Positions 328 through 45,100 of a stretch of DNA of 64,000 nucleotides are shown here, in pieces. The first letter of the stretch is position 1, and each line of letters begins with the position of its first letter. The stretch comes from Branchiostoma floridae (taxonomy: Eukaryota; Chordata; Leptocardii; Amphioxiformes; Branchiostomatidae): the NCBI RefSeq assembly GCF_000003815.2, contig NC_049986.1, positions 5,110,662-5,174,661 of the forward strand, given 5' to 3'. The notes under the pieces were generated by a model. It saw only the letters and a list, made by a program, of their open reading frames with translations, had not been told where the DNA came from and searched no databases. A program made the position numbers and the translations under genes.

Positions 328-3300
328 ATGGACAAACTGCAGAGGGTCCTCCAAGTCTACAGCCTGCAGGAGTTCAAACAGTGCAGTTAAACACTTGGCT
401 AGCATCTGACTGCGGTCCAAGTACACCTGCAGAGCTGTCAGCACCTGCTGCTCAGTCATGTGACCTGCCACCTGTAGGGCGGGTTAACAAATTTCAATCC
501 TTCCGACTAAGTGTGGTACTTCATAATCTGATAAACTTTGTAAAGATGGACACTGTATGTAGCACAACCATTTCAAATTGGTCCAGTCCACAACTCTTTC
601 TCACTAAAGGTCGACTGTTCCAATATTACCCCATACTTTTTATATTATCATACTATAAAACAAAACTAGAGTTCCACGACCTCATACCTTTGCCAAATGA
701 TAAGCTTTTTGAGTGAAGGACATTTGTAAAGTGTTTCCCATTAATAATGCAAATAAGGTCCTTATTGGAATGAATTGTCTCAGTTGATCATTAATGCTGG
801 ACAGAAACGAGTGGAGACACAGGTGTCACCTCCAACAAGAGGATGAACTGAACAGAACTGATCATCTTCTACATCCACTCTTGGAGGGGAGTCCCAACCT
901 TAGGTGTGATGAAGATATCTCTAAAAGTTCCGCATTACTGATTATAGGACTTCCAGGGCTCGAAATACCACCTGCATATGCAGGTTAGTGCAGGTAAAAT
1001 TGGAGCTGTGCAGGTATTTTTGGTGTCTACCTGCACCTAACCTGCATTGGTCCATGTACTGGGTTTTATACATGAATGTCCTATGGTGTAGGTGTATATG
1101 GATTGTTATTAGCTGCATTGACTGTTACCACCTATAAAGTATAAAAGAAAAAAATATCAATGGTTCCTGAACAATTTTAGTATGATCCATACTGCCTAAA
1201 TTCAGAGTGGTGCAGGTAAAATTTGTCTGGTGCAGGTAATTTTCAATGTTACCGGCACCAGTGCAGGTATGCAGAAAAAAGTATTTTGAGCCCTGACTTC
1301 TCTATTCTGGGAATAGTTCTCTCTCAGGTCTCTACCAGGCAAGTCCTTTGTAACCTGTTGGCCGCTTGAGTACTCATAGAGGTACTCATAGAAGTGATAT
1401 TGTATTACTTTTTTTCTAGCATTTCGTCATAAATTATGTACATGAGACTCTGATTTGCATGATCTATGTCACATGATGTTCACATTTTATTTCCTTTGTA
1501 ATGCTTCAGGTATGACATTTCCATCATTTACCACAATGGAATTAGAATATTTTAATTATGCAAATGAGCTCTTTAATATTTGCATAATTGGTATCTATAG
1601 ACATTCCTCTTATTTATTTATTAATTATGCCAATTACTTCTTTCATGCATAACTAGTATGATAATCTTTATCATTTGTATCAACTTCATTTTAACTTGTC
1701 TACCTTCCTTTCCCATTGGACTACTAAAAATTGTCCTTATCTCCTTTGCATTTCAATTCACAGTTAGGATATAAAACCTGCTTTCAAACAAGATCATTCT
1801 CTTACGTGTCACTGACGAAAGATAACGGATGTTATCTGAAACGTCTGACCGTTTCCAAAGTCATATCCAGTTGCTTGAGTAATTGCTATTTGGTGTACAA
1901 TATGAGAGAAGTCTGACCCTGTGTGCAGGAATGTGCTCCGCCCCAGCAGCCCCTGTCTCAACTAGACCCAAGAAATCCAGCTTCTGTCTCAGTCCTCTCA
2001 GTCCAGCGATAGTACTGCGAACCCCCCCACCATCCTGGGAGCGGCGTACTTGAACTCTAGAAAAAAAGCAATCTTGAGGACCTGACAACTCTTTGTTTCT
2101 GTTTTTTGTTTGTTTGTTTGAAGAGTGCAACATAATAGTTGCAGAAGTTGGCCAAATGGACAGATAGCATGCCAGAGAAGTTAGCCAGCCTGTGATTACA
2201 GTCTGGCAGGACATGTACATGTAGCTACTAACCTTAAACAGTATAAAAGTAACAAACCTGGCATGGTCAGCCAACAACCTCCAGTCACAAATTACATTAA
2301 AACAGTCTACTAGTACTTGTATAGGACACTATTGTTCAGAGCAACCCGCAGTCATGAAGAAGTTTTCTTCAGTCACAAACTACGATTTTAAACTCGGCGT
2401 AGGGCGACATACTGCCGCCATATGGTCGCAATAGGCAGTGTTTCTGTATCTATGGGACCAGAAATCGTGTGGCCGTGGCCACGTTGGACAGGTGGCTGCT
2501 ATAGACTATTTCTTTGGTCAATGGGAAAAATCCAAGGGACCGACAAAAAGGGACCGTACTGGCCAGGTGGTCGCTATGAAAAGGCTACACAGGTTTGACT
2601 GTATTGTGATCTTCAAATGTACCTTACCCTGAGTCTGTGTCAGACATGTCGTCTGATCCGCTGTCACTGTCCACATCCCCCAGACTGGTCCCAGAGATGT
2701 CCAGGGAAGTCAGGGCTGGGAGGCTGGCAACCAGCTTAGATAACAGGTGACTCTTTCCTGGGGTCTTCCTCTCCGGGAGGACTGACATGTCCAGGTGTCT
2801 GTTTGAAAATGCATTGTAGAATGGACCATGACTTACACATGACCCCAACAGTCATCCTGTATACTGCTACTTTTACTTCTGCAACATGGGAACCCCTCTG
2901 CCTTCATATGCCATAACTATGGCCGGGACTGCCATGCGAGGATTGGCCTACAGAGCCACAGAAGATGCTGTCAAATGCCCTAATATACATTTCTACTAAA
3001 GATGAAAGGATGCCTATAACAACAACTACTTCTACTACATATATATTGTCCTGTTCTGATTAACCCAAAGGCAATTGAAAATGAGCTTGACTTGGCTGTA
3101 GTTTCCCTGAGCTTACCTGAGTGCCTTCATGCTCATGATCATCTGGTAAGCCTGGTCCTTCAGACTGCAGTTGTACAGGACCAGGGAGGACAGCTGGTGC
3201 TTTAGAGGTTCCAGAAAGGACAGGTCATCCACGTGTAACCCCGACACGTCCAGCGAGGTCAGGTTGGACAGACTCCTGGCCAGGCTCTCCAGGCTGGTCA

Positions 3301-4070
3301 GCGGAAGTCCGTGCAGGTTCCCGATGTTCAACACTCGCAGTCGGGGCAGGTCCAGGCGGATGTCTTGATGTGGCCATGGAAAGGACGCGTTGCCGCTGAT
3401 GTTGAGAGCCAGCAGTGTGTGTTTGGACTGGTGGAGATGTTGTAGACAGTCTGCATTGATGTTGGGGCAGCAGGACAGATCCAGCTCCACCAGATGGTGT
3501 TCCCGGAGAGCTGACAGGACTTGGTTGTTAATTTTCTCATTGCCGTGCAGGTGAACATGTCTCAGTCTGGTCTGCTGGGGGTCTGAGAAGACCCGGACAA
3601 ATGGTCCATCCGCATAACCTCTCTCATTGGACCTGGGATAACAAAAGAGCAGGACTGTTATAAAGGGTCCAGCCTAATTACTGTAAATGCATTTAAGTTT
3701 GGAGGATTTCATTTTGCGGTAGTCGGTAGAGTGTTTGTGGCGGTAGTGCCATATACTGTGGTCACTACAATGGAAAACGTTTGCAGTGATTTTGAGTTTG
3801 CGGTGAAGCAGCCACCACAGATTTTGGACCAAGCAGAAAATGAACAGATTATTGGCAGTATCTTCTGTACCAGTATCCATCCCTAATCAATAGACTAGTA
3901 TATTCTTACCAGTTGAGTAACTTGTCGCTATATTCACTGGGGATGCAGATGTCAGTTTTGATGGCCAGTGGAACCCCTGCTCCATCCAGCACACAGAAGG
4001 TGCCCAGGTTAGCCAGGCAGTAGTGCACACAGATGTCTCCTAGTGACTCAGGCTCCCCTGTCAGGCTCAT
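328..4070 (-). CDS. ZER1: ZER1-like CUL2 ligase substrate receptor, 5' coding exons (3' part outside window)
   Basis: ZER1/ZYG11 proteins are leucine-rich-repeat plus armadillo-repeat receptors of CUL2-RING ubiquitin ligases that bind proteins with an N-terminal glycine. Coding exons read on the minus strand are 4070-3910, 3632-3117, 2798-2628, 2056-1918 and 471-328; all borders are AG/GT, the phases join without shift, and the sum is 377 codons. The N-terminus (PESL..IC, then IPSEYSDKLLNW) is VHL-box-like and matches my recollection of human ZER1 (PESL..LC, LPSEICDRLVN). Then FSDPQQTRLRHVHL, LVELDLSCCPNI, LTSLDVSGL and LSSLVLYNCSL are LRR segments in the same order as ZER1; LDFLGL and EQQVLTALQVYL begin the linker to the ARM repeats. 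An acidic insert (DSDSGSDDMSD) ends exon 3. The start ATG lies one base inside an exon with a strong pyrimidine-tract acceptor, so a spliced 5'UTR is expected. The ARM repeats are not in the window. Assignment to ZER1 rather than ZYG11 is by alignment from memory. Confidence 0.88.
954..1295. mobile_element. hAT-like MITE with ends CAGGGCTCGAAATAC
   Basis: The left end is CAGGGCTCGAAATAC and the right end GTATTTTGAGCCCTG, an imperfect terminal inverted repeat. The interior carries many short GTGCAGGTA/TACCTGCAC motifs in both orientations. ACTTC flanks both sides, shorter than the 8-bp duplication usual for hAT. It lies in ZER1-like intron 4. A second, truncated copy starts at 4112. Confidence 0.6.
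1680..1917 (+). mobile_element. Solo Penelope-like terminal repeat abutting ZER1-like exon 4
   Basis: Same family as the element at 42934-45041: a CCATTGGAC box (1712-1720), TATAAAA near 1771, a hammerhead core (1812-1853), the segment ATCCAGTTGCTTGAGTAA, and an end that aligns with GTCTAACC seen in other copies. The left limit is approximate. The right limit coincides with the end of ZER1-like exon 4 at 1918. Confidence 0.65.
1812..1853 (+). ncRNA. Hammerhead ribozyme-like motif in Penelope terminal repeat
   Basis: CTGACGA (1812-1818), stem II AGATAAC/GTTATCT with loop GGAT, GAAA (1838-1841), then stem III ACG/CGT closing a TCTGAC loop, with putative cleavage after GUU. One extra A lies between CTGACGA and stem II. 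Stem I is not clear. Confidence 0.7.
3679..3808. mobile_element. MITE fragment, ACTGTAAATGCATTTAAG family
   Basis: The terminus ACTGTAAATGCATTTAAG is shared with elements at 7576, 9130-9318 and 26205-26326, and the interior carries the family's TTTGCGGT and AGTGTTTG-type motifs. It lies in intron 1 of the ZER1-like gene. The right end is not clean. Confidence 0.55.
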
Positions 4071-4111
4071 GCTGCTACAGACAGGAAAGGACAACAATTT
4101 AAAAACATACT

Positions 4112-4275
4112 CAGGGCTCGAAATACTTTTTCTGCCTACCTGCACTGGTGCAGGTAACATTGAAAATTATCTGCACCAGACAAAATTTACCTGCACCACT
4201 CTGAATTTAGGAAGTATGGGTCATACTGTACTAGAATTTTTTAGGAACTATTGCCATTTTTTCTTTATACTTAAT
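4112..4275. mobile_element. Truncated hAT-like MITE (left end only)
   Basis: Begins CAGGGCTCGAAATAC and contains the same GTGCAGGTAA blocks as the copy at 954-1295 in inverted order. It stops where the next foldback element begins and lies 41 bp upstream of the ZER1-like acceptor. Confidence 0.5.
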
Positions 4276-4282
4276 AAATAAT

Positions 4283-4970
4283 AGGGGGTCTGCATAAACA
4301 CAACAAAAGACCACAAACAACCACAAACGACTCTTATATGCAGTGTTTATGGGGCAACGACATTATGTACGCCCTGGAGACATTGTTTATACATTTATGA
4401 ATTAAAAAAACGCAGCAAGTTCTACGTATTCACGAGTTATTTTGAGTTAGTCCAGTTTCAAGATTAAAGCAATTCTTAGCTACCATGTTGGATCGAGCTT
4501 GCTTACATTGAGCCTTGCCGCGCTGCGTGCCTGCGAAGCTGGTGTGTTACGCCGAACGGCGGTTATACCGGCTATATAGATACAGATACAGATTGAGGCT
4601 GAAAAATACTTAGTATATATACAAGTTTTATAAGTTGACAATGATAGAATTACGGTATGTTATAATCTATGAACCAACAGCTTCCATAGTTCTATCGCCC
4701 TGTTGTCTATAGAACCGAGGAAGGTATGGAGAACTTCCCCATGCAGACTCCTAGCACGAGCAATCCAACATGGCGGCCAAGAATCGCTTCGATCTTGAAA
4801 CCAGTGGACTAACTCGAAATAACTCGTGAATACGTAGGAGTCGTTGCGTTTTTTAAATTCATAAATGTATAAACATTGTCTCCAGTGCACCACACAAGGT
4901 CGTTGCCCCATATACACTGCTTATTAGAGTCGTTTGTGGTGTTTAGGCAGACCGCTTAATAGGCATTTTT
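4283..4970. mobile_element. Foldback element with ~215-bp inverted arms
   Basis: 4283-4500 and 4755-4970 are inverted copies: GGTCTGCATAAACAC at the left is matched by GTGTTTAGGCAGACC at the right, and both contain ATTCACGAGTTATTT or its complement. The middle (~250 bp) is unrelated. No coding sequence is seen. Confidence 0.7.
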
Positions 4971-6850
4971 GTAGTATTTAGGTACAGGTATATTAACTTG
5001 TGCATAGGTAGTGTTAATAAGGCCACAGCAAGTAAATTTTATGGACGACATCCTCTGCGGACTGCAAAAATAGTGCGTTTGGGTGAGAGAAAAAAACAAG
5101 ATGGGTGAAAAAACAAGATGGCTACATTTTCAAAAATAGGCACCATAAAGTTGTGATGACTGTTGTAAAAAGAATTAAAGGGACAAATCATGGTATCAGA
5201 GTCAACAAGGCATTCATTCCTGTGACATGTACTGGTGTGGTAAAAGTGACACTAGTGTGGTAGACTGGCATCACCAACAAAGTTGGTAACCACACTCATA
5301 CTCATAGCTACCATATTGGTAACTATCCAATAAGTTTCAGTTCTACAACTACAGTCCTGGGTACCTCGCAAGTGTCACTTCTACAAATACAATTATTAGG
5401 CTACAACACAATATATTTGTTCATTTTGGTACTTTATCGTCATGTTGACCATCCCTGCAGAAGAAACAAGAGTTCGTAGACCTCAGGCCTGCATGAAATG
5501 TATTGGGTTTCTGTAGACCTATTGTGTATTTTTGCCTTTTTGTCTGTGGTACGTGGTTGGAAAAATGAGCTTTTTACCCTGTTGGTTGTGCACCATGCAA
5601 AAGTCTGAAATTCCATTTTCTGAATTTGTAAGTTTGGACATGGATGAACATTACTTATTTTGGATTTCTTAAGTATGTAACCAACCACAGTACCTTGAAG
5701 TTGTTGAGACACAACCTTTTTTTTGTCTCAGATGGCCCATGTACATGTAGTTACTCTGTCACATGATATATTCAGTACTTATATCTTCCTATTTCAATGT
5801 ACTGACCTAATGCAGCTGCTAAATCTCCTTGGTTTGTGTTCTTCCAATGATAGTCATTAAAGATTTATTTCTGGGGTGTTATTCACTTGACATCGGAAGG
5901 TTACTTGCATAATTTGACCAATGATACTTTTATAGTAGTTCCATAGACATTAGACAATATGAATAGTGCTGGCCCCCATGATGCAGCAGCAACAGTTAGT
6001 CCCCAGGGTGGTATGATATTTTTATTCAATCCATCCAACCCAAATCTAAATCTCCTGTAGTATCTAAGCCAAATTTAACAGCATAATTTACTATGAAAAA
6101 TGTCCTTGTCAATCCCATTTATAGATGGCAAGCTGCTGGCAATGGAAGCTTTGAAAACTTCAGAAGCTGTTGTAGTCAGAGCGAACACCCAGCAAACATC
6201 CCCCCAAACCAATGAGCAGTTGCTTAGAAGGGGAATTTCATCATATATTTGCCGCGACAAAATGCAACAAACGATACTGAATTTAAAACAGAACCAAGCT
6301 AAGCCTCCACCACTTAACCCTGCCTGTACTATAGATTAAGCAGGCCCAAAAACCAAGCGAATATGACTAGCCCAAAACTACAAATTACCTGTATACAGTA
6401 TGGAATTGGAAATGGCATTACCAAAGAAACAAAAAGAAACACAGGACAAATCATACACATACCTTTCTCTTATGCCCACACTCTATACAATTCTCCTCCA
6501 CATTAGAAAATTGCATCTTCTTCTGTTTAAGTTCAAGTTCAACCATGATTGCCAACAGGGTAAAGGAACTTGTACCAGAACTTTCAACTCAGTACTATAC
6601 AGCTCTAGAAACACCACAAAGAGTAATAAGCAAACTCCAATTATACCTGACCAACAGATATATCATCTGGTACACTCCCGTCATCTGGCACACCCGTCAG
6701 TGCCACTCAGACAGGGGATACAAAGTAACCTGATACATTGAAGGTTGCCCCAGGCCAGATGATGGTTCTACACCCAACCGTAATCTGTTTTCAGAACCAA
6801 GCAGATATTGGGAGGATGCCCCAACCACACCAAAACAGGGTCAACCTATA
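4971..6850. other. No gene found
   Basis: AT-rich sequence without convincing exons. The MITE end GGCCACAGCAAGTAAA occurs at about 5021-5036. Short open frames here lack codon bias or recognisable domains. Confidence 0.5.
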
Positions 6851-6854
6851 CAGT

Positions 6855-7425
6855 ATCAAGTTCAAGCACTAGGAGGCCCAAAATCAAACCTCACCACCAA
6901 GACACCACCAACAACTCACGTACCAAATAGCAACACAATGGCACCTTGCGTTCCGGAGATACAGCGCACGCCACGTGCCCGCACAAAAGGTAACCTAAAA
7001 TGTCAAGTTCAAGCACCAAGGGCGCCAAAATCAAAATTGAGAATTATTCAGCCACCGCCGACACATGTGCCAAATATCATCGCGCCCGCACCAACCGTTC
7101 AGAAGATATAACTCCGGAAATACCCCTCCCGGACACAAAATTCGACCTGCCGCGTCAAGTTCAAACGCGACAAGGCCCAAAGTCAATCCTAGGCAACAGG
7201 CAACAACTTCCCACCCATGCACCAAAAATCGTCGCAATGGTGCGTATCGTTCTGGACACACAGCGCCAAAAGTGCCCCAAAAACACCAAAAATGCCACCT
7301 GCAATGTCAAGTTCAAGCGCCAGGAGGCCCAAAATCAAACCTGAGTGTCAGGCCACCACCCCCAACCCACGTACCAAAAATCGTCGTGCTCGCACCATCC
7401 GTTCTCGAGATACAGTGCCCTAAAT
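6855..7425. repeat. Degenerate ~150-bp tandem repeat, four copies
   Basis: Units start at TCAAGTTCAAGC-like sites near 6858, 7001, 7157 and 7308; each continues with a GGCCCAAAATCAAA-like block, a CCACC run and ACGTACCAAA. Overlapping open frames in several phases are explained by the repeat and are not taken as genes. Confidence 0.7.
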
Positions 7426-7575
7426 CCCCAGCTTCCAAATTTTCCCACGCCCGTGAAAACCATACCTGCATACATGCAGGTAAAAAATTCTTGTTTTTTT
7501 TCTGAAATCAGGTGAAAATTAATGCACACGCTGATGTCATCCATAAAATTTACTTGCTGTGGCCTAATGAGAAAA

Positions 7576-9318
7576 TACTGTAAATGCATTTAACGCTAGT
7601 TAACCTTTATTCGTTGCGTTTTTTCACCAAGAGTCAGCTTATTCCAATCTGGCAGAAGAACAAAGCATAATTTCTGTATTCAACATGGTGATAATAATTG
7701 TTGTTTACCTTTGTCATTCATCCCGTCCACGATATATTTTCTCTCCTACCATGCTAATATGAAAATGTCTCAATTTGAAAACACCGTCGCGTTGCGTTGA
7801 GAACGACGGCGCTCCCGGAGGGCGTGACCTTTATTCGTTCTGACGAGACTCGTTATGTTTGTCCGCTGCTAATTACTTTATGCTGAAGCTATTGTTCCTT
7901 TCTTGACATGAGTGCTCTAGATTACAAACTTATTCAGGCAACAAAAAAATCCCGACAACTACCGCTGAGTATTTACCGTCACACGCAGTAGCGCGTTGGT
8001 AAAAAAAATGAGGTTGTTGGGTCAGTAGACCGTGACGTAAAATCGATCCTGGCGCCATGATCGTTCCATGAAACTTATGCACCTTTCGTTGCAACTTGAA
8101 CGGCGTGCTGTGGCTACTTCCAAGCGGGTAATCATCAGTTTGCAGTACAACAATCTGTACAGTGTTTTGCAGTGTTTTGCATCTTCCACGCGGCAAAATG
8201 TAACCCGATATATTTGTGTCAAAGGTCTATTCCGGCGGCCAACAACACTAAAGATGAAGGGGTGTGAAGTCTGATATGCCGCTGTTGTCAATGCCCTGGA
8301 TCAAAGAACGAAAGATTCCACAATAAATGATATAAAACATTGCTGTCAGACTTGTGGTCGACAAATATGCAGTGCAAATCTTGTTATCGGTGTACCATAC
8401 CCGTACTGAGACAGTTGGTATCGTCTTCAAGGCCGTATTTGCAACAGTTTACATGATCTGGCTTGGGACTTTCACATTTTAAAAAAAGGGGACCAGAGTA
8501 AAATCAATTAATTTGTCGATGTTCAATATCATTTCCATTTTTGGTGGTGCATAAATTGTTTAATAGATGGCTGCTTAATGATCTAAGAGAAAAAGGCGAG
8601 TTAGTGAGTTATTAAAGGTAAGTTTAATAAATACCTTTTAATGTCGTCATCCAATCTTTTTCCCGCGGTTGCGACCGTAGGTTTGTGGGGAAAAAAACAT
8701 GGCGACGTTCGATCGTGCGCCACAAGTGCGGGAGGTTGTGGCAACAAAGAGACGGTTTTCGACAATTGATCACACTTTGAGTCTAGTTACTGGTTAGCAA
8801 CACAAACTTTATTGAGTTGTCTTGTGCATGATAATTGTGAACTGGAAGCGAATGTGATAGATCTCTGCCATTCCGGCGAACAACACGGTGACGCAATCCT
8901 CCCATAGAGCGGTAGGCTATTACAATAAGGGACGGTACGTTTTTGACCTCGCTGTTTTCAAATGCGTGGTCATCGGATCCTTTTCATGAATATTCTGAAC
9001 ACTTAAGTCTCTTGGTTATGCATTCCTGTGGTTATTACTGATGTTGCATTTACCGTGTCTCCGTAGATTCCCTGTTTTTGAAAAAAACGACTTAAGGTAA
9101 CTGAACGAATAAAGGTTAACTAGCGTTAAGTTCGCGGGGATTTAATTTTGCGGTAGCGGGTAAAAGGACTTATCGCAGTGGTTTTACATGTAAGTTCGCG
9201 GTAGCACCATGCACTGCAGTCTCTTACTGCCATAGAAAAATGCTTGCAGTGGTTTTAAATTCCGCGAACATAAAAACCGCGAACATAACACCACCGCGAA
9301 CATTTCTGAATTTACAGT
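7576..9318. mobile_element. MITE (ACTGTAAATGCATTTAA family) interrupted by a TTAA element
   Basis: The left piece 7576-7593 ends in TTAA and the right piece resumes at 9126 with TTAAGTTCGCGG and runs to GAATTTACAGTGG near 9318. Joined, they restore the start of the MITE seen whole at 26205. Confidence 0.75.
7594..9125. mobile_element. Non-autonomous TTAA-target DNA transposon (piggyBac/Kolobok-like), 1532 bp
   Basis: Flanked by TTAA at 7590-7593 and 9126-9129, with terminal inverted repeats CGCTAGTTAACCTTTATTCG that match exactly. The TIR-like string ACCTTTATTCGTT recurs inside near 7828. No transposase reading frame is seen, so it needs a trans-acting enzyme. TTAA duplication is characteristic of piggyBac and Kolobok; which one is not decided. 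Confidence 0.8.
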
Positions 9319-9389
9319 GGTAACCGTTATTCACTTGTGTTTTTGTTACTGTGATACTGTGACATGTTGAAAACATGATATAGCTGACT

Positions 9390-9476
9390 TAGGCCACAGC
9401 AAGTAAATTATATGGCTGACATTTTTGCAGTCTGCAGAGGATGTCATCCATAAAGTGAACTTGCTGTGGCCTTATT
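9390..9476. mobile_element. Short palindromic MITE, ~87 bp
   Basis: GGCCACAGCAAGTAAA at the left and GAACTTGCTGTGGCC at the right form a terminal inverted repeat, with GACATTTTTG/GAGGATGTCAT inside. The same end occurs singly at about 5021 and 7546-7563. Confidence 0.65.
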
Positions 9477-10590: not shown

Positions 10591-10674
10591 CTTTTGAGCG
10601 AGGTATCCTTGTTGGTCGTAAAGTGTAACATTGGTGTTCAGTACCGCCTATCGTCTTTGCCCAAGGGCACTAGT

Positions 10675-26500: not shown

Positions 26501-29500
26501 CTGTCCTGCTGCCGGTCCTGGCTGCTGCTGGCAGGGATGGACAGAATCACACAGCATGTCGGCAAGGTGAATTCTCTTCCCTCTCCCATCCAGGGCCAGA
26601 TATATGGCTCGTTCTCATTTAAATGTCGAAATGCTGTCGCCTGACTTTACGCCTTGATATGGAGCAAATTATAGACAACATCACTGGTTCCTTCATTTTA
26701 CCACAACCCCTGTAATATTTTACAACAGATGCACCACAACATTCGTATTGGTCGATGGCTTAGAAGGTTTAGAATGATTGTTCGGCAGGTGAAACCAGCA
26801 ACCAAGGCCCTCTGCCCGATCACCTCAGATCGCTCCTGTCACTGATCTTGGAGGCTGTGTGAGGTGGTTTATGCCTGTCGCCAGATTCGGTAACAAACGT
26901 TACCACCACGGTCGATAAGGCGTCAGAAGGATGACGGCTGAGACACAACGGTTTACCGGTTTCGACCTTTTAATCAAAAGTCTTCATCAGAATGACAAGA
27001 GAGTGGTACCGCACTGGCTTTTATAGCTTCTACTCTAGTTAGGGCAGGGTGCCCTGAGCAGTTAGGGCAGGGGATAGCCAATCAGATTACAGGATATCAT
27101 ATTGCACTAGCTATGTGGCCAATCAGAGTATAGGGTTCAATGGCCAATCAGCTTACAGGATATCGTTATGCACTGGATAGATCTGGCCAATCAGAGCGTG
27201 GTCCATTGTTCTCCCGGCCAATCAGCTTATGGGATGTCATCTTGCACTGGCTGTATGGCCAATCAGAGTATTGGGTTCAGTGGCCAATCAGCTTACAGCA
27301 TATCGTTTTGCACTAACTAGATTTGGCCAATCAGAGCCTATGTCTAGTCAGGTCAGGGCGCTCTGAGCGTAGTCCATTGTTCTCCTGACCAATAAGGTAG
27401 TTCGTCTCATAGACGATTGTTCTACTGGCCAATCAGGTTACATTTAGTGCCCTATGCCCTTTGTTCTATGACATCATCCGTTAGGCGGGAGATACAGACA
27501 TGGAGTGCGGTACGGCTAACTATGAGCACTTGTACAGAGGTAAAAACAAGACTTGTCTATGCATACATGGCTGTGACTATTACAAAAGAGACAATAGTAA
27601 ATATGCTGTGGTCTTAGCTTGCCGTGTGGAGAGGAGTTGGCCCCAGTCGTCCTTTGTAGAGTTGTCCTCAGGTGGAGTCTGTCGCGTCTCGGATCCGTTC
27701 CATGTGGATGGTAGGATGCTAGTGACCGGCTAATGTGGCGATTGAGTGTTCATTGGGTGACGGTCACGACGAGATGCTGCTCTTCAAACCCTGGTGATCT
27801 CTAAGGACTCCTGGTTCAGGCCCTCTGGATGTAGTGTTCTGAGTTGATGAATCCAGTAGGACTCCCGTTGCAGGCGGCGTTGTCTTGTGGTGTCTTCATG
27901 TCCTGTGTAGCGTAGTTTTTCGATTCCAAGAACTTCAAGGTCTGCAAGGTTGTGATCTGTGAGGTTGAAGTGGGCTGATACCGGAGTGTCCTTCTTCGTG
28001 TTGATGGATGATCGATGGCCGTTCAGTCTATTGGCCAATGTTTGTTTGGTCTCGCCCACATATTGTAGCCCGCATTTCTTGCATTGGATGAGATAGACGA
28101 TGTTTCTGCTTTGGCAATTGATGTGGTTCCTGATGAGATGACGCTCTCCCGTGCGGTGGCTTGTGAAGTAGTTGATCTTCTTGATGTGGGTACAAGTGGA
28201 GCACTTGTTTCTTCCGCACGGAAGGACCCCGAAGGAGTGAATTTTTTCAGGAAGTTCTTGTCCTCCTTCGGGATCTGGGCTCTTACTAGGAGATCCTTTA
28301 TGTTTTTGTTGCGGCGATAGGCAAACAGTGGTGAATCTTTGAATATGTCCTTGGTTCTTGTGGAGAGTTGCAGAAGGTGCCAGTATTTTCTGATGATGGT
28401 TTGTAGTGGCGGAAGGTGTGGACTGTATGTGGTGACCAGGACTGTACGTTCTTGTGGTGGTGTCGGCCCCTTTTCCTTCAGTGTGTCTTCGCGGGGGCGT
28501 TCTTGTGCACGCGTGATGGCGTCGTCCAGTAGGGCTTCTTCATAGCCCCTTTGCTGGAAGTGTTGCCGGAATTCTGCAGCCTTTTCCTTGAATCTGGGTG
28601 TGCTTGAGCAGATGCGTCTTAGACGTAGGAACTGACCGTAGGGAATCCCCTGCTTGCAGTGTTTGGGATGGGAAGAGTTTCTGAGTAGGTACTGGTGCTT
28701 ATCTGTCGGTTTGGTGTAGAGGTCTGTTGTAATTTCCCCCTCCGAAATGATGACGGTGACGTCTAGGAAGTTGATCGAGGTTTTGGATGTTTCCACTGTG
28801 AACTTAATTGTCCTGTGGGCTTCGTTAAGGTCCTGGATGAAGGCCTTTAATTCTTCCTCTGATCTTGTCCAGACTGCGAAGATGTCATCGATGTACCTCC
28901 ACCATATCCATGGTCTTGGGGTTCTTTTGTAAACATGTCGTTCTTCGAAGTTCCCCATGAATATATTGGCGTAGGATGGGGCCACTCTTGTACCCATAGC
29001 CGTGCCTTGGATCTGGATGTAATGTTACCACCACGAGTACGATGGTTGCCACGGTTATATTATCCACGTATAAGACTAGAAATGACCGTTTTTGTGACGC
29101 TGTACAGTTTTTCTGGCTTCCTAAAGAAACAAGAAAGGGTTGTTGACTGCTATTTGTATCCCACCTTGCTCAACAAAATGTTGTACAGAAATGTCTGTAC
29201 CAAACGTTACCATTGTTCGATGCTGTCTAAGCTTTCTATCTGACCTGGTGTAAAAAAAGCTGCCCACTTTTCAAATGTCCCTTGGGAGATCCACTTATAC
29301 CTAAATGATGTAGTCAATAAGGTGAGTCCTTTAGAAGAAAACAGCGTTAAGTCAACAAACGTTACCGGTAACGTTTGTTACATGCCCTGTAATGCATTAC
29401 CAATGGGACCGAAAGTAATAAGTTGCCATTTTTTGGCTATGGTTGAAAGAGGAATCTTCCTAAAGAACCAGGTAGTTTTCACTGAAAATAAAGCCGATTT

Positions 29501-33106: not shown

Positions 33107-36100
33107 ATGGGTTGTGGCGCGTCTGCTCCAGTCCGACGGGACCACTGGGCCCCCAATGCGGTGCATGGGAATAAAGCCCAGGGGAGAGCCAGCAGCTGGG
33201 CTCCCCCGCCCCCCGGGTACGCCCCTAACCAGGGGAACGTCCAGTACGTAAGATGGCAGCCCCAGGGCCACACAGCCCCTCCACCCCAGTGGCTACATGC
33301 AGGCATCGCTCCACCCAGGGGACGGCCCCAGGTAGGCCCGGGACAGCGACCTCCTTACGTGCCGTTCCCAAACTTTGTGGCACCCCGTCCACCCCCGGGC
33401 AGGAAGCCGTTAGACCACGGCGAAGTGTCGCCAGGTCACCTCCAACCTGGGCAGAAAATCCGCCCGCGGCCGCAGAAAATCCGCCCGCGGCCGAGGCCGC
33501 GTCCGCCGAGAAAAGAGAGATACTCACCGCCGAGAAAAGAGAGATACTCACCGCCGAGAAAAGAGAGATACTCACCGCCGAGAAAAGAGAGAGACACACC
33601 GCCGAGAAGAGACTCACCGCCGAGAAAAGAGAGAGACTCACCCCCTCCCTCACGGCCCGAAACCCCAGTGGTCGTAGAGGCTCCACCAGAGAGAGTACAC
33701 GTCAAAGCAGCCACACAGGTACGAATAGAAAGAAAAATCAGCATGTTCACGGTAATCATCAACCATTAACCTTGCTTCAACCCAATTAAAGAACGAATCA
33801 TTTTTTGCAATGTAACACAAGCAGGCCCTAGTGTTAACCTGGGCAGGTGTTTGTGTTGTTACTTAGGTGACAGCTGGTGTCACGTTTCACCACACCCATG
33901 TTTCTTATCCTTCAAACAATGTGAACCACAACCGATGATTGGATGTGTTATAACTGTTGCTGACTATCTATGACATCTAGTCAACAGAAAATCAAGTAAT
34001 CATTGTAAACAGTTGTGACGCCAACTAAGCAAAATCGTACCCCCCCCCCCCCAAAAAAAAAACAGTTACCAGTGGTCCGAACATAGACAGCAATAGGACT
34101 GGTATAGAATGATAATAATGTAGTCGGCCAGCCAAAGGAGTCAGTGCGCGACCGACTCCCTTAGCATACTACTCACTTTATTTGTCCAATTTCTACTATT
34201 TGGCCGCCGATCCGTGGAGCCTGGTAGAGACTACACAAAATGTATTTTACTAATACTAAAGCTTATTGACTGTCACGGGGGCGAGTCGAAAATCAACGTA
34301 AGTGGTTTTCTAAGTATGGCACAAAGGTAATGGATATAAAGTCAATATCATCGAGACTGAAATATCTTCATTAGTTGGTTTGTTCTTCTTACGAGCCACT
34401 GCCTTGATTTCAAGACGACCTCCCATTAGAAGTCCGCTGAAGCGAACAATATTACAATGGAGTGTCAATGAAAACTCCTTGACTCACTTACAACTATCAT
34501 ACTAGACAAACTACATATGTATCAAAATGCAGATCCTTAGAAGTCACATTTTTCATTTCTGAAATCCAGTCAGTTTCTTTTTTTCGTTGCTGGAGTGGAG
34601 TGAGTTATTGGTGAATTCATATCGGTCACCAGGGTCCTGAATGTGCGTTGTGTTCTTGAAGACTGCTTCCCTATAAACTGAGAGAAACGAAAAGAGGAAG
34701 TGTTGGTAGTTCAGAAATAAACATTGGCATTTAACCGACTTGTAATAGTAGCTGTTAAAGATGAATTTCGTTTTGTAATGTCTTGCCCTAAATTTGATAC
34801 ATATAGCGTAGTCAGAAAATCATAGATACACTCAATTGCGCCCAAGCATGCCAAGTGTCGCTTTTAAAATTACCTTGTACACTGACCGATATTTTTCGTA
34901 TGCTGTAATCACATCCGACTCCTACATATATATGTCTACCTACGTGCATGTGTGATAGAACTATTAATAGTTGACAATATCGTCAGGCTCAAAAACAAAA
35001 TTTTAGCATTCACACTAGCATTTCTTAAAAACATCCGCACCGCCGAGAAGCGTGGTGTTAGGTCAGTCCCAGAGCTAGAGCAGATGCAGGGGGAATGTGG
35101 GAAACCTTTGGGCACGAAATTCTGAGTGATTCGTCCACCGCCCGCCCCCTCCCTCAAATGGACTTTATGAAGCTAATTTACAGGGATCTGGCTTTACCAT
35201 GCGACTCGGGCACTTCCCCATAACTCCTGAAGGATGATCCAATGATTGCGCAGTGTAAATAGTACTAGCAGGACAATAACGGTTAACATATTTCTTTGAT
35301 ATAGTATTATTATTATTATAAAGTGGGCTGATCATCAGATTCAGTATTCTTTCTAATAGCAAAGCAGTCCTTGATATATTTGCCTACTAGTTGGGAGTTC
35401 TGACAAAGTGGTCAGTAGTTAACGTGAGCTGACGTTCTTTCCCCCCTTCGTGTAGGAGATGACAGATGTCATTCGGAGTTGCTTGAAGTCCGGTACGCCG
35501 TGGGACGACCCTGACTTCCCCGCAGCTCCAAAGACAATAGATCATCGCGGCAAGGCTAGCAACAAAATCGAATGGAAGCGACCACAGGTAGGCTGCAGGG
35601 ATTCGATATTTACCGTCAAGCCATAGACAGACTGGTAAAGCTAGGGGTACAACCCGGCGTACATGTAATTTGGTCGTACGTTTGTTTTTTGAGGCCACGT
35701 CTGAAAACGTTCAGGCAGTAAAGGGCAGGCACGTCGCCCATACTGGCACGTACGGGGGGGGGGGGGGTGTACGGGTGTGTGTGTATAGAATCCGCAGCCC
35801 GATGGCACACAAAGTTTTGCCTGCACGGAAAGTTCTACGGCGTGTCTGTGTGCTCCCAAATCCTTCGGATTCCCTACGAGTTCGTACGGAGGCGGTACTT
35901 ACCACTTACGCGGATCACAAAAGAGTGAAAGCGTTGTCCACTATTTATTGTACTGCCCTAACTACAACCAACTTAGAAAATCCCTTCTCTGCAATCTTCA
36001 AGACCTTTTAACCCTTGATTTGAAAACTTCGTCTGACCCAGTCTTAACTCAACTTTTACTCAGGGGTTCACCCACTTTACCAACAGAAACAAATACCCAT

Positions 36101-39100
36101 ATTATGCAGCTTACACAGACATACATACTCCAGACCAACCGTTTTCAATTTGATTGAACGTTTTCCTTTAAAATCTTGTATGTATATATATTTATTTGTT
36201 GGATCCGTCACCCCACTGCTGTACTACTATTTTATTTGATCTCACATTGTTTTGTCCTTTGTTTATTTCATTTTCAAATGTCCTAGTGGTAAAGTTAATA
36301 TTAGCTTTGCTAGAGCACATTTACCACTGTGTCTTGTCTTGTCTTATATGTTTACCAATAAAAAAAAGATTGACCACGTTTTGTCACATAGCACGCATTT
36401 GCACGTAGGGCGGGTTGTGCCCCTAGCTTTAGCTTGACGTTGCGTACGTAGGAAAACCGTGACCAAGTGGCCCTGAAAACGTGACCACATTCCCTCAAGA
36501 GTAATGAACTCCCGAGACTGACGTCTTACTCGTAATCTAAGAAATTGACCGTGTTCTTTCCTTTGTTGCAAGGCGCTGGTGGACAATCCGCGCCTTCTTG
36601 TGCACGGAGTCAGCACGGACGACGTGCGTCAGGGTACGCTGGGAGACTGCTGGTTCCTGTCCTCGTGCGCGGCTATAGCCAGAGAGAGTAAGCTGATGGC
36701 TAAGGTGAGTGGTTGGAGTGATAGTCTCCACAACGTACCATGTCTGTACCCTTAACGATGTTCTGATTGTCTGTTGATATGCGGCAAACTTCAGACAGTA
36801 TGGAAAAGGTCACAGTACCGTATGTAGGCGGTCTGAACCTCTAACTGTTTTTGCATATTTCTATTGTAGATGAGCATTTTCTCATTGTAACGGAGCATCC
36901 TTCGTAACGCTAGTGTGAAATTCTGAAATTGTGAACACAACGTCGATATTGGTTGGTAGTGATGTATGGATAAACCATACTTACTCTGGGGAAAGACTTG
37001 TGGAAGGCACTTTCCTTGATCATTGGGAATTGCTCATTGTAGTAAACTATACATGGGGCATTTCATTTTCAACTGTCTTCAAAGAAGAAGTCAAGCCCCG
37101 TAATAGTTACGTAGATTTAGTACCCTATTCTGTATCGTATGTACATTCGTCCACTTAATATTTGTAGATTAGAACTTAGATTATCTACATGTATTTAGAC
37201 CACATTCATTAATTTCATGTATCTAGTCTTTCTTCACTTGCAATTAGCCCCATGGGCATGAACTTGCAATAAAACATTGTTTATTATCCCCAAAGGTTAT
37301 TCCCAAAGACCAGTACCTGTGGAAGGGCGGAGGCCGGTATGCGGGCGTGGCTCACTTCCGGTTCTGGAGGTTCGGGGAGTGGCAGGACGTGTACGTGGAC
37401 GACAACCTGCCGACCGTATATGGCAACCTCACGTACGCCAGATGTAGCGATAAAAATGAGTTTTGGCTTCCTCTCATCGAAAAGGCATATGCAAAGTGAG
37501 TGTTTTCTATCAATAATCCGCAAACAAATTGTTTTTTTAAATGGGAGAAAAACTCATACATAGATAGAACTTGGTTTTACGAATAAATTTACAATAGTAT
37601 ATACTAGATTTATTTAGTACATATTATTATTATATATAGTATTTCAGTGTTTATAAGGTTTTATTGCTTTACATCCATTACCCCACGTGTGTTCATTTGT
37701 GCTTTTTCCCCCTTTGGGCATGAGAGGGGTTGATGACCCGCCCCGATGTAGGATGGTGGCATAACCCCTGGTTTGCTATAAACACAGAAGAAATCCACCG
37801 AGTGAAGCGAATGAGGTGGAACAATTCATATATCCGGACAATGCGCCAAAAAAGCAGTTACTGAAGCAACTGGATAAGATTTGAGAAACGGTTAGACGTT
37901 TCAGACAACCATCCGGGGTTTTTCGTCAGTGACACTGAAGAGATCTTGTTGGAGTTTTTATATCCTAGCTGTTATATGCAAAAGTGATCTAGCTGGAGAA
38001 CAGGTTTATCTTAACTATGAGTTATCAATTCACAATTTACAATTTGCATATCAAAGGTAGGATATGGAAACTCTCTCCAACAAGATTTCTTCAGTGTCAC
38101 TGACGAAAGACCCCGGATGGTTGTCTGAAACGTCTGACCGTTTCCAAAAATATCCAGTAGCTTGAGTAACTGATTTTTGGCGTATCTTATTACATGGGTG
38201 TCTAACCTTCATCGACGTATCCTGACAATGTGTGTGGACTATGGATAAGGTCATGTGAATTTCTCCTTACGGTCCTACCGTTCCCTCCCACAGACTGAAT
38301 GGATCCTACGCGGCGCTTATACAGGGCCATGCCAACGATGCCCTGACAGACCTGACTGGAGGAATATGTGAAAGATTCAAAACTGGAAGACATGAAGAAG
38401 AAGTTCTGTACAAAACATTGCTGAAAGCTCAGAAACGCGGTTCTTTCATGACGTGCTCCACACAGGTGACAATTTAATTTGCACTGCGCTTTGGGATGTA
38501 CATAATTTTGGGCCCCCTGGCATGTGACTTAAGTACTGCAGCAGAAATTCCGTTTTTTTGTTGTATCTTTTGACCTGGACGTGCCATGGTCTTGATTTTT
38601 GGTGGAGGTAGCTTGTGATGCAAGGAATACTTGATGTATGTTTGGGTGCCCTAGCAGGTTGTTCTTGAACTGTAGGGGCGTTTTTGTCAAAGTCGGTGCT
38701 TTTATAAGTGGCTTTTATGAGAGAACGAGCAGACAAACTTTAGCTCATTTTCATGTATTTTGTAGATTGTACCCGGAATTTTAACATATTCAATTCTTGT
38801 TAATTACTTTTGCACCCTGTTATACATTTTGAGGCATCGAACCTCCTCACTTCGGGGTCCTTAACAATGTAAATCCCCATAGATGAAAGACTGTGAGCTA
38901 CCTTGAGTGTTGGAAGACCAAGGTCAACTTGCACCCCCCCCTGCCTTGGTACTGCACCAGAACTTCCGCTTTTGTATCTTTTGTCGTACACATGCCGTGG
39001 TCTTGCTTTTTAGCAGCAGAGACTACAGTATAGACATGCAGTGAATGATACATGTAGATATGTCAGTTTTTTACTTTTGCCTCTTTGAACCGACGCAGAG

Positions 39101-42100
39101 CACGTTTGACGAGGGTAGTAATGAAGGGTTAGTGAGCGGCCATGCCTACACCATCACAGGAGTCGAGAAGGTATGTTATCGCTATTGAAACACTTTCAAG
39201 AGACTTGTCAATCTGTGGATAGTTTCATCAGTTTGGTGCGACACTGAATAAAGTGCTTCGGTGACCGTCTGTCGCTTTCCCCAGGGCGGTTCTGGCTGGT
39301 TCACATTGTACTGCAGCAGTAGGTGTCGCTGCTTACAGTTACAGATGCAGTCACGAAACAATTTGCATATGTACAATACTGCTTTTGACAATTGATGCAT
39401 TCTTAAGAAGTAGATTGACAATGTTGCATCGTTATTATTGTTTATTGACAACTGCTTGAATATATCACACTCCATTACGTTTCGGACCACATTTAAAAAA
39501 GGCAGTCACTGTATATTTGTAAATACTTTAAAATTTGTAACTGTAAACAGCAACTGTATCTGTAGCTGCATTTGGAACTGTATGCGGAGACACCTAGTGC
39601 CGTAACACAATGTGAACCAGTCAGAATTGCCCTTAAGGAAGGTAACAGACGGTCACCCAAACTTCGGCGTCGGTGTACATAAGATAACGGTTGTGTGAAA
39701 AGAGTGTCTTTATTGAAGATTTGCCAAGGGTCTTCTTTGAAAGCGTCTTGCGACCAGAGCATTTTCTTATAACTACATGTACGTTCTTGACGACATTAGA
39801 TAAGGAACTCTGGAAAGACCCACAACCTTCTCCGGATCAGGAACCCGTGGGGCCGCCAGGAGTGGAAGGGAGCGTGGAGTGACGGGTCAGTAGGCTTTCT
39901 CTCATGTGTCACTCACGACGTAAGGCCGGCAATGATGCTGTCTGATCATGTTTATCAATCCAGAGCACACACACACAGACACAGATACACACACACATTC
40001 ACACACACATACACACACACACGCACACAGGCGCGCGCGTGCACGCACACACACACAAGTATACACTAAAATACACACACAGGCACAGACACACACACAC
40101 ACACACACACACAGACATACACATACACACACACAAACATACATGCACACACAGACACGTACGCAGACATATATGAATAAGATATATTTACATATATGTA
40201 CATATGTACATACGCATATATATAGAGAGAAAAAGAGACTGAGAGAAAGAGAAGAAGTAATACCAGGATACCCCATAAGCCCCGGTCACAAAGCGCGTAC
40301 GATTTCTTGCGATGGTATATTCCGCATATCGTACGATGAGCGCAGTAAATCGCAACAAAATCGTAAGCAAAATCAGCCATCGCAGAGCATCGGATGATGT
40401 TCAAAATTTTTCCAGCGTCGTACGATTTTTCACTTGTGTTTCTTCTGAATAGCCGCCTGACCGCTTTTGCGCTTCTTTAACCAACCAGATGTGGACATAG
40501 CTGTTGAATACCTTCCTATAATATCTTTAACTGTAAAAATAAATTAAAAGAGACCATGACAACATGAGTATTACAAGCAAAGGTTCAAATCAAGGACAAG
40601 TACTGGTATGGTTATCTCGGCCTGTTTGCCGGCTCTTCGAGTCAAGCTTTTTCGAAGATCGTATTATGATATGCTATAAACAAAAATGCTATCAACAAAA
40701 ATGCTATCATACAAAAATCATATCATAAGCATTATATCACATATATTTTCGACTCATAGAGCCTGCCTTTCTGTTCGAGTTGTCCCTATGGTTATTACGA
40801 TCATGGTAAACTGACCCGAGGCAAACGAGAGCTGAGATTTGATCTAATTATGAACTCACGTGCATGTAGCGATATAACAATTGTCTGCATCACCTGTGCG
40901 TGATACTGAATCTGCCACGTGTAAAACATTGCCTTGAAGGTAGGCTCCTCAACGGGCGCGCTGTTCTCTGGTTGCTACTGTGGCAGTTGCGACTGATGTA
41001 GTTTCCCAGGCCTTTAGAATAGTATCTGCCATTTTTCTCCCAAACTAAATAATCCCCTTAACACTGCCTTTCGACTGCTGCTTTTTACCAATGTGCGGAT
41101 TTGCATGACCTCTTATGTACTAGAATGTAGAACTGCTATATCTTTGATCATGTAAGATATACGTTTCCAGGTCATCAGAGTGGCAGAGAATGCCAGAAAA
41201 CGTCCGACAGAGGCTTGGTTATGAGAACAAAGACGATGGAGAGTTCTGGTACGTAATGCGCTTGTGCGCCGAAGACACATCAAATACGTCACCCCGAATC
41301 AGCAGTAGAGTACAATTTTGTAGAATTGCATCAATGAACAGAAAACACGGCATGTATAAGATAGAAGAACTGTATTGCACAGCAATTGTGCGCAGTACAT
41401 GTATGGCAACAACTATTACACATGGTGCAAAATAGAACATATGACTAAATACAAGGCTCTACATACACAGCACGCAGACTTGAAGCAACTGTTTATTGCT
41501 ATCAGCATATCGCCAGCGAGCTATTCTTCACTGTATTATGCCACGTTATGCTATAGCTTTAGTCAATCATATCGACCCCGCGTCATGTATATAAGGTGAA
41601 TGATTGTTACAATAACACCATGTATGCCCCCCCCCCCCCCTGTGGTAGGATGGAATGCGGGGATTTTTGTGAGTTCTACAGAGAGGTCACCATCGCTTCG
41701 CTGGCAGAACACGAGGTTGTTAAAACTGGTAAGCTCTTCTGTTGTACTTGGGATTTTCAATCTGTATGATGCTTGTTTTTTATGCAAAATGCCCTGCCAT
41801 GGACTCCATGGCAGGGCATTTTGCATGGAGTGTTTTTTAAAAGACCCATGTCCACTTTTTTAAAAGACCCATGTCTACTAGAGGACGGGACCAAAAGTTT
41901 CATAGACCAATTCGAATTTCATACGTAATAACGAATATTTAACATTCCGTGTGTTTTGTTTTCTTCTAAATCATACTTACATATTGCACCATATTCCACT
42001 AATGAAATGAAGGGTCACATGAAACCAACTGGTCCCTGTACGGTCGGTCAGCGATCGCAGTCCAGTGGAATTCCTTATACCCCTGTCACATTGTCGACTT

Positions 42101-45100
42101 TAGCCGACTCTTAGCCGACCCAGGTCGGCAGTAGTTCGGGAGTTTGACGCTTATCTTTTAGTGCAGAACATGTACCAAACATGTCCTAACCATCTCCCGA
42201 CCAGTAAATGACTTACTACCGACTGTGTCCCGCATGTTATCTACCCTATTCCCAATCATCCCGACCTCTAGCTGCAGACTGCCAAATTCGGCTGTGTGTA
42301 ACTGGGGCTTGAGTCGACATGAAGCTTGAAGTGTGTTTCTGCCTTTATCAACAACAATAAGTGTTTTACACTTTCATAAAGACATTAGGGCAGACGCCAG
42401 AACCAAGGTTTCTTCCAGCCATAGCCTATAAGATGGTGTGTATTCTTTGGTATAACCGCTTTGATTCTGTAACAGATGTGAAGTCGAAGTGGGACGTTGC
42501 ACAGGAAATAGGAGAGTGGGAGAAGGGTGAAACCGCTGGAGGCTGCCGCAACCACATGAAAACCTACGCCAAAAACCCGCAGTACCTCTTCACACTGTCG
42601 TCTCCAGGTACGAAAATCCACAGTACCTTTTCTCACCATCGTCTGTAAGTATTAAAAAACACAGTACCTCATCACACTGTTTTCTGTAGGTTCTTAAAAT
42701 CCGCAGTACCTATTCACACTGTTGTCTGCAGGCACGAAAAACCCACCGTACCTTTTCTTACCATCGTCTGTAAGTATGAAAAACACAGTACCTCATCACA
42801 CTGTTTTCTGTAGGTTCTTAAAATCCGCAGTACCTCTTCATATTGTCGTCTGCAGGTACGAAAATCCACCGTACCTTTTCTCACCGTCGTATGTATGAAA
42901 AACACAGTACCTCATCAAACTATTTTCTGTAGGTACGTCGATGTAGGTTAGACATCCAGGTAATAAGATGCGCCAAAAATAGTTACTCAAGCAACTGGAT
43001 ATGGTTTTGAGCTAAAAGTAACTCGCGGCCAACAAGCCCAACACGATAAGGGGAAAGCCAGACAAAGGGACAAATTTGAACGTCTATTACAAAAAGAAGG
43101 GAACAGTCGTGCAGATAGGGACCCCAATTGGAGATCAAACAGTTCCAAAACCCCAGTTCAGACTAGAACAGACGAAAGGTGGATCAGGAATCTCAGTAGC
43201 CATACTCTTACAGAACCGAGAAATCGCTACTGTCTAAAGGCCTAAATTTTGCAGTAGCCCCTAACAAGATCCCCAGCATCGACATTGTCACAGAAACTGA
43301 GTCAGCAATCCACCGGGCCCGTTTGCCACAGAGACAGGCTGAAGCCTTACGCGCCAAAGTAGCTACCACTTTGAAAGTTTCAAAACCCCCTCCCAGCAAC
43401 ATCACTCGGGAAGAACAAACTGCTCTCAGAGATTTGGCCACCAATCAAGACATAGTAATTCTGCCGGCAGACAAGGGGAGATGCACAGTAGTCTTAGACA
43501 GGGAACAGTACGACAGAAAGGTACAAGATCTATTAGGGGACAAAAACACCTACGCGCCTTTGAAGAAGGACCCCACCTCCCAGTTTAAAGGGAAAATCAT
43601 CACGGCTCTCAAGGAATTGGAAGACAAGGAAAAAAAGATTGACCGTGCCACCTATCTAAAACTCTACCCCACTTCGGAACAACCCCCAACCTTCTACGGC
43701 CTCCCACAAACAGGATGTCCCCCTACGCCCCATTGTGTCCAGCATAGGTTCTGTCACGTACGAGTTAGCAAAATTTCTAGCTAAGATCCTGGGACCTTTA
43801 GTGGGGAAGTCTCAACATCACGTTCAGAATAGTGCAGACTTCGTTGACAAAATCAAAGATCTCCGGGTAGAAGAAGATGAAATCATCACTTCTTACGATG
43901 TCTGTTCGCTTTTCACTTGCATACCTCCTAAGGACGCAGTCTCGGTAGTCAAGGAAGCCCTGGAGGCTGACAACACACTAACAGACAGAACCAAGCTATC
44001 TCCAGACCAACTGTGCAAACTGCTAGACCTTTGCCTAGGGTGTATTTCTCTTTCAAAGGACAGTTCTACCAACAACTGCACGGCTGGAGGAACACAAACA
44101 CCTCCGAAGTGCATTGAACAAATGTGGTTACCAAAACTGGACTTTCAACAAAGCCCTCAAACCCTCGGACCACTCAAAGAAAACAGCCAAGTGCAAACCA
44201 TTGACCGACAGAAAGAAAGCCAACATTACCATCCCCTATGACCAAGGAGTTTCGGAAAAACTCAGACGGATCTTCCAAAACTTCAACATCGCCACTTACT
44301 TCAAACCTCACTCAACCCTCCGACACAAACTGGTACATCCAAAAGACAAACCACAGAAAGGTACTAAGGCCAATGTAATCTACAGACTCAAATGCGAGGA
44401 ACCCAACTGTAACAACACATACATTGGTGAGACTAGTCGTCCACTAAAAGCAAGGTACCAAGAACATTGCAAACCGAAGGCCAACGGCTACTCTTCTGCT
44501 ATTTTCAACCACCTAGAACACAACCAAGGACATTCCTTCAACCTCCAATCTACCGACATCCTAGACCGCGAAGCCCGCTGTTTTGAACGGGGAGTTAGAG
44601 AGGCCATATATGAGAGAATATACAATCCCACCCTCAACAAAAAAGGGGGGCTACGTATGGAACTTTCCGGCACTTGGGACATAGCACTGACCCCCCCCCC
44701 CCCGCCAACAAAACTTTAGCTCCTGTAACTAAAACAACAGGAGCTAATTGACTCATTTGCATTAACTGTGTCTTAGCCTTGCTATCCTTTGAAATCCAAG
44801 TTGTCTTCAGCTTGACTTTGGTTTAGCTTTGTTTTCTTTGGAATCCAAATTGTCTTCAGTCTGAATTGTCTTACAACCTTTCCTATTGGACATCTGAAAT
44901 TGTCTTCATTCATAGTTAGAGTATAAAAGACCTGTTTCTTCCAGATCTCTTCAGTGTCACTGACGAAGGATAGTGTATTCTATCCGAAACGTCTGACCGT
45001 TTCAAAACCATATCCAGTTGCTTGAGTAACTATTTTTGGCGTATTTTCTGTAGGGTCTTAAAAACCGCAGTACCTCTTCACATGTCGTAAGTACGAAAAA

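Follow-up and report, generated by a model that had tools for sequence, protein, structure and literature searches.

Minimal hammerhead cores in Penelope-like terminal repeats

A 64,000-nt stretch of Branchiostoma floridae contig NC_049986.1 (positions 5,110,662 to 5,174,661; hereafter the window) carries, in the pseudo-long terminal repeats (pLTRs) of Penelope-like elements (PLEs), cores that are very probably minimal type I hammerhead ribozymes with predicted self-cleavage. A strict descriptor (CUGANGA, 0-1 nt, stem II with 4 bp or more, GAAA, helix III with 2 pairs or more and an optional loop, U, a base other than G, and stem I) matched four cores on the two strands, at 1812, 38100 and 44960 on the plus strand (1812+, 38100+ and 44960+) and at 26990 on the minus strand (26990-). 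In 300 dinucleotide shuffles the same descriptor yielded 0.12 cores per window with any stem I, 0.03 when stem I had to reach 2 bp and 0.0033 when it had to reach 4 bp; the three matches with a 4-bp stem I (1812+, 38100+ and 44960+) are homologous copies and so do not represent independent events. A relaxed scan that admitted substitutions was less clean, with four places scoring at least 8 in the window and 10 in 60 shuffles. The catalytic core letters CUGANGA...GAAA...UH are thus found in four of five copies by the strict descriptor, and they are also present in the fifth, 37929-, where decay has broken a pair in stem I and another at the base of stem II. An earlier reading of the sequence alone had listed these five cores as equals; the letters are there at all five, but 37929- is decayed and 26990-, whose stem I is 2 bp, belongs to another family. 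The other four copies, 37929- included, are referred to as family 1.

The fold of the better copies is well defined. Stem I, which the sequence-only reading had left as unclear, is GUCA/UGAC (GTCA/TGAC in DNA) and pairs over 4 bp beside the predicted cut site in 1812+, 38100+ and 44960+, but not in 37929- (one mismatch) or 26990- (2 bp). The plus-strand copies have the palindrome ACGU, without a loop, as helix III, and their cut is predicted after ACGUC; 26990- has the palindrome ACCGGU, also without a loop, followed by an A at hammerhead position H17. No stable helix III hairpin was found in the four strict-descriptor cores, only the loopless ACGT or ACCGGT palindrome. The register proposed before, a stem III of ACG/CGT followed by UU, was rejected because stem I would then fall to 1 bp; its columns never vary and are uninformative. 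Stem II differs in sequence and is nevertheless paired, as had been claimed, at 1812+ (7 bp, AGATAAC/GTTATCT), 44960+ (6 bp, GGATAG/CTATCC) and 26990- (7 bp, GACTTTT/AAAAGGTC, one G-U included), and in 38100+ it consists of 4 bp (AGAC/GTCT) and an imperfect CC/GG. All five copies have one extra A between CUGANGA and stem II. Among the four homologous window copies both sides of stem II changed at three of seven pairs, which by itself makes compensatory change suggestive only; the genome-wide test below carries that claim.

Other places were examined with the relaxed scan and with a model, R1, trained on the four copies of family 1 in the window. The sole R1 match in the window outside the training copies (39902+, E=2.5) was taken as chance. 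At 48113- (48120-48075) there is a hammerhead-like core with U4 changed to C, an extra base U, a 5-bp stem II, an ACGT palindrome and a 4-bp stem I; it could be a chance match or the remnant of a third family, and it is not claimed as a further core, relaxed-scan scores of at least 7 arising 17 times in 60 shuffles. The family-1 pattern gave no match in IMG/VR and none in GTDB, and the reverse transcriptase (RT) protein gave six pattern matches in these two collections, none confirmed. A looser pattern retrieved 13 viral stretches that served as a negative control: stem I was 0-1 bp in 13/13, stem II was 1-5 bp, and the best R1 score was 13.6 bits.

Stem II covaries among genomic copies of family 1

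The source genome (513 Mb, 431 contigs) was searched with a pattern in which the core letters were fixed and stem II was free. Family-1 cores were found at 1262 places (657+605), compared to none for the reversed-pattern control. The base after CTGACGA was A at 1262 of 1304 places and another base at 42 (the control for other bases gave 6, so some of these are chance), indicating that the extra A seen in the window is a rule in family 1. The plus-strand hammerhead of the chrysanthemum chlorotic mottle viroid, an unrelated element, is of type III. Passages of PMC3705267 describe in it an extra A (A10) between A9 and stem II that slows cleavage moderately, and the extra A here corresponds to A10.

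We read the 100 copies listed of the 1262, from contig C1 and the start of C2, and evaluated covariation on the 96 with an 18-nt insert, the four with another insert length being dropped. Stem II pairs 1-6 are standard in 88-93 of these 96 copies, and pair 7 is standard in 52. Across 59 distinct cores, 324 of 354 cells at pairs 1-6 are paired, compared to a mean of 246 and a maximum of 270 in 2000 re-pairings, which ignore relatedness; registers in which stem II was slid gave paired fractions of 0.32-0.52 versus 0.915 in the true register. The excess of paired substitutions across genomic copies that the sequence-only reading had proposed to test for is therefore present. Stem types seen at least twice were fully paired in 10 of 11 cases, and those seen once in only 8 of 34. 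Taken together, it is well supported that stem II pairing has been kept by selection on the fold of the source elements, and the difference between recurrent and single stems fits such selection followed by neutral decay of the copies. The suggestion that the copies themselves are under selection for the fold thus holds for the genome-wide covariation but not for its target, which is the source elements. Stem I, which the pattern did not fix, is exactly GTCA/TGAC in 62 of 100 copies and has at least 4 consecutive bp in 67.

Relatives of 26990- form a second family. Its pattern (CTGATGAA, 19 nt, GAAACCGG) occurs at 32 places genome-wide, with one in the control; 22 of the 32 are identical by eye, a set too uniform for a covariation test. 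Despite an unrelated stem II, the letters common to both families are the hammerhead catalytic ones, including an H17 that is not G. Two same-orientation pairs, 5045 and 4088 bp apart, occur among the 32 places.

The cores lie in Penelope-like insertions

The insertions that host the cores have pLTRs, a tail and target-site duplications (TSDs) of Penelope-like type (Table 1), and this context, together with a GIY-YIG domain, places the cores in Penelope-like terminal repeats. TSDs of 12-13 bp flank three insertions, whereas only 1 of 1861 random flank pairs scored as high. The duplication around the inverted pLTR pair at 37844-38217 reads TATCC[G/T]GACAATG (37831-37843 and 38218-38230, 12/13 identical), and that around the insertion at 42934-45041 is the 13-bp TATTTTCTGTAGG (42921-42933 and 45042-45054, 13/13). 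No TSD was found for the solo fragment at 1756-1895. The target of the 42934-45041 insertion is a 124-bp tandem array, which extends over 42572-42937 and 45044-45140 and is interrupted by the element.

Table 1. Hammerhead copies, host insertions and associated features in the window.
Feature	Position	Strand	Details
Minimal hammerhead, copy A	1808..1849	+	stem I GTCA 1808-1811/TGAC 1846-1849; CTGACGA 1812-1818; extra A 1819; stem II 1820-1826/1831-1837; GAAA 1838-1841; ACGT palindrome 1841-1844; C17 1845; predicted cut 1845^1846
Solo pLTR fragment with copy A	1756..1895	+	TATAAAA 1770-1776; by alignment ends at GGTG 1892-1895, 50 nt past predicted cut
Minimal hammerhead, copy B	38096..38138	+	stem I 38096-38099/38135-38138; core 38100-38106; stem II AGAC/GTCT 38108-38111/38123-38126 plus imperfect extension; predicted cut 38134^38135
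Decayed hammerhead, copy C	37891..37933	-	core 37929-37923; mismatches: one in stem I, one near stem II base
Two inverted pLTRs (copies C and B), no open reading frame	37844..38217	.	35-nt tail 38183-38217
Minimal hammerhead, copy D	44956..44997	+	stem I 44956-44959/44994-44997; core 44960-44966; extra A 44967; stem II 44968-44973/44980-44985; GAAA 44986-44989; C17 44993; predicted cut 44993^44994
Putative promoter of copy D	44922..44956	+	TATAAAA 44922-44928; initiator-like TTCAGTG, A at 44953
Penelope-like insertion with copy D	42934..45041	+	inverted tail and pLTR piece 42934-43010 at 5' end
Penelope-like open reading frame, broken	43200..44719	+	three overlapping frames; upstream of copy D
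Hammerhead-like copy E, second family	26946..26996	-	core 26990-26984; extra A 26983; stem II 26982-26976/26971-26964; GAAA 26963-26960; ACCGGT palindrome 26960-26955; A17 26954; stem I 2 bp
5'-truncated Penelope-like insertion with copy E	26911..29023	-	12-bp TSD 26899-26910/29024-29035, 12/12
RT end	28023-29024 frame (within 27784..29024)	-	RVT_1 E=4.9e-06, 26.8 bits, below curated cut-off 29.6
GIY-YIG domain	27784-28539 frame	-	E=2.9e-08, 34.3 bits, above cut-off 22.6

In the minus-strand element the RT end and the GIY-YIG domain lie in two separate frames. The plus-strand open reading frame (ORF) at 43200-44719 gave no Pfam match to a PLE domain, and BLASTP matches its last piece to the GIY-YIG end found in the minus-strand element (2e-05, 27% over 73 aa). 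The minus-strand element also contains a 140-bp unit repeated 1.9 times (27077-27337), placed between its GIY-YIG ORF and its ribozyme. The predicted cut lies 43 nt (26990-), 48 nt (38100 and 44960), 50 nt (1812) or 51 nt (37929-) from the pLTR end, and 83 nt from the end at 38100 where the 35-nt tail is included. A 3' hairpin, AGUUGC/GUAACU, had z-scores of -0.08 to -1.77 over the five cut-to-end stretches, none of which was significant singly.

Elsewhere in the window we observed a Zer-1-like leucine-rich-repeat coding piece on the minus strand (3113-3673) and a 24-bp tandem repeat in an open frame that encodes a repeated peptide (33503-33642).

Putative transcript starts and insertion ends

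Upstream of the core at 44960+, TATAAAA lies 31 nt before the A of an initiator-like TTCAGTG, and that A is 7 nt upstream of the core. At 26990- the arrangement is similar, with TATAAAA at 27025-27019, 32 nt before an A at 26993 that is itself 3 nt upstream of the core. TATAAA is found 20-50 nt upstream of the core in 46 of the 100 family-1 copies, at exactly 38 nt in 33 of these 46.

The 5' ends of short copies fall in the same region. Homology is lost within 14 nt of the core in 38 of 100 family-1 copies, and a TSD was detected for 10 of these 38, compared to 18 of 400 controls, when junctions were sought within 4 nt of the homology end; the junctions are at -5 to -11, and the 3' ends at +45-54 or +82-91. 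In the second family, a TSD was found in 4 of 16 copies versus 0 of 240 controls, with 5' junctions at 0 to -6. Some short insertions therefore span the putative transcript start to the putative start of reverse transcription, uncut ribozyme included. Taken with the TATA boxes, the 5' junctions suggest that in both families RNA starts 0-11 nt before the core. In three short copies (L145, L113 and L073) an inverted 3' end is apparently fused, by eye, to the ribozyme region, as if both strands had been primed from the same RNA region.

Counter-evidence and alternative explanations

Several observations weigh against the hammerhead reading. The sequence-only reading had named the lack of a covariance-model hit as a result that would speak against it, and this result was obtained with Rfam 15, which gave 18 matches up to E=10 in the window with no hammerhead family among them, and we infer that this is because the Rfam hammerhead models expect a helix III. 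Model R1 does not recover 26990- at E<=10. The constancy of the core letters across genomic copies is an input rather than a result, since the genome patterns fixed them. Stem I is 0-1 bp in 19 of 100 family-1 copies, as expected for truncated or decayed ones, and the 16 second-family copies read have a stem I of 1 bp (two copies), 2 bp (ten) or 3 bp (four), so short that this family may be unable to cut in cis. Nearest-neighbor folding, in which the hammerhead core is unscored, puts competing hairpins 5.6-7.5 kcal/mol per monomer ahead of the hammerhead; in family 1 GACG/CGUC and GAAACG/CGUUUC can form such hairpins, which bury the core. Such burial in a single copy fits, but does not prove, a dependence on protein or a partner. 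Same-orientation pairs, as needed for cis dimers, were not seen among 30 family-1 loci; a second core was present at 11 of the 30, each time in opposite orientation, with three elements seen from both ends, and in a family-1 copy that has an open frame of 769 aa, the upstream pLTR is inverted.

Nor is there a clear footprint of cleavage at the predicted site in genomic copies. The base before TGACCG is not C at 110 family places (by eye, 68 T, 24 A and 8 G among the 100 listed), compared to 44 places that differ one base further upstream (23 C, 15 A and 6 G by eye), so that the excess of changes at the predicted cut site is mostly C-to-T. Among 20 copies read of the 32 listed with A or G, the sequence there is by eye unrelated in five and inverted in five. 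The correlation between upstream and downstream sequence is low (0.14), which could reflect recombination at the cut site, but stem II/flank correlations are low too. In one genomic copy (L049, near 1501) there is a 10-nt insertion precisely at the predicted cut (GAAACGTC, extra bases, TGACCG).

One alternative is that the motif is a structured hairpin kept for recognition by a protein or RT, for instance as a mark of the RNA start or template, and is a former hammerhead in which cutting is now irrelevant. All 16 second-family copies read keep the core while their stem I spans 1-3 bp, the competing hairpins of family 1 have the better nearest-neighbor energy, and ribozyme-dead RNA of an anole PLE inserts like wild type (PMC11167929). 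We nonetheless consider this explanation possible but unlikely, because the letters kept across the two families are precisely the hammerhead catalytic set with H17 not G, and the GTCA/TGAC stem I persists in most family-1 copies read.

That the recurrence reflects mere common descent of pLTR copies, with the fold unselected, is highly improbable. In its favor, three of the four strong window matches are homologous, and double changes in the window are confined to three of seven stem II pairs; under a simple model the pattern at 1812/44960 has P=0.003-0.18, varying with substitution bias and G-U counting. Counted on a tree built from 105 flanking columns, pairs 1-6 underwent at least 12, 24, 24, 7, 8 and 17 Watson-Crick to Watson-Crick changes, respectively, although pairs 4 and 5 do not exceed non-partner positions (9 and 7 of 30 reach them). 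This tree is weak, with an upstream versus downstream distance correlation of only 0.14, and the covariation claim therefore rests on the re-pairing test, where the paired cells far exceed the shuffled maximum and nearly all recurrent stem types are intact. Canonical hammerhead retrozymes, small tandem non-autonomous circular-RNA elements, are equally improbable: some insertions of ~95-130 nt do hold little beyond the ribozyme and 3' end, but no close same-orientation neighbor exists in the window, nor within ~1.5 kb at 30 loci of one subfamily, the helix III hairpin is absent, and the pLTRs flank PLE-type ORFs.

Relation to known elements and a possible role

Minimal type I hammerheads of PLEs were reportedly described by Cervera and De la Pena in 2014 and by Lunse et al. 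in 2017. Minimal PLE hammerheads without helix III appear in passages of PMC6155905 and PMC7761336, and those treated in parts of these papers and of PMC6466107 share with the present ones the lack of helix III, the location in pLTRs, possible dimers and many copies. Their role is called unknown in the section of the review PMC7761336 that deals with them. The Penelope families of the rotifer Adineta vaga, as described in PMC3846280, likewise have inverted pLTRs, a 31-bp tail, TSDs, and a TATA box with an initiator-like sequence in the pLTR; the TSDs described in passages there are 8-10 bp, and those here are longer at 12-13 bp. The words "hammerhead" and "ribozyme" do not occur in the main text of PMC3846280.

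The closest functional comparison is PAc, a Poseidon PLE of Anolis carolinensis (PMC11167929). Its ribozyme cuts only when protein is added, and catalytic mutants insert as well as wild type. The PAc RNA is cut at +26 and reverse transcription starts inside it at +111-118, 85-92 nt downstream, a placement similar to the 83 nt at the tailed end here; in both cases the tail lies between two RT starts, putative ones here. Whereas protein-assisted cleavage has been demonstrated for PAc, cleavage here is predicted from sequence. The ORF of PAc opens at stem II, and in the present elements the beginning of the ORF was not located. The literature thus already covers minimal Penelope hammerheads as well as pLTRs, tails and inverted arrangements, and the link of the ribozyme to the transcript start may be in print too; the present cores belong to this known kind of ribozyme, now with strong covariation support.

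How minimal hammerheads might serve these elements can be outlined from the positions of the fold and the insertion ends. The pLTR promoter would start RNA a few nt before the ribozyme, placing the latter at the 5' end of the element transcript. Cutting after ACGUC in family 1 could take place in a dimer held together by the palindromic helix III or with the help of the element protein, and it would remove ~40 nt of leader. Reverse transcription would start downstream of the cut site, at about +48 or +83 nt, and because of that placement inserted copies with a whole ribozyme would derive from RNA uncut there. We tentatively propose, as a rather doubtful extension, that the ribozyme at the RNA 5' end in at least two PLE families acts as a gated cap-removal device: RNA cut with the help of a dimer partner or element protein would lose its capped ~40-nt leader, uncut RNA would serve as mRNA and template, and the competing hairpins GACG/CGUC and GAAACG/CGUUUC would restrain the ribozyme until protein binds.

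The combination of 1262 cores of one family, strong covariation and many TSD-flanked insertions makes it possible to ask where the RNAs of these elements begin and whether it was cut or uncut ones that were copied. That the ribozyme sits at the putative transcript start in two families is a concrete and testable lead.

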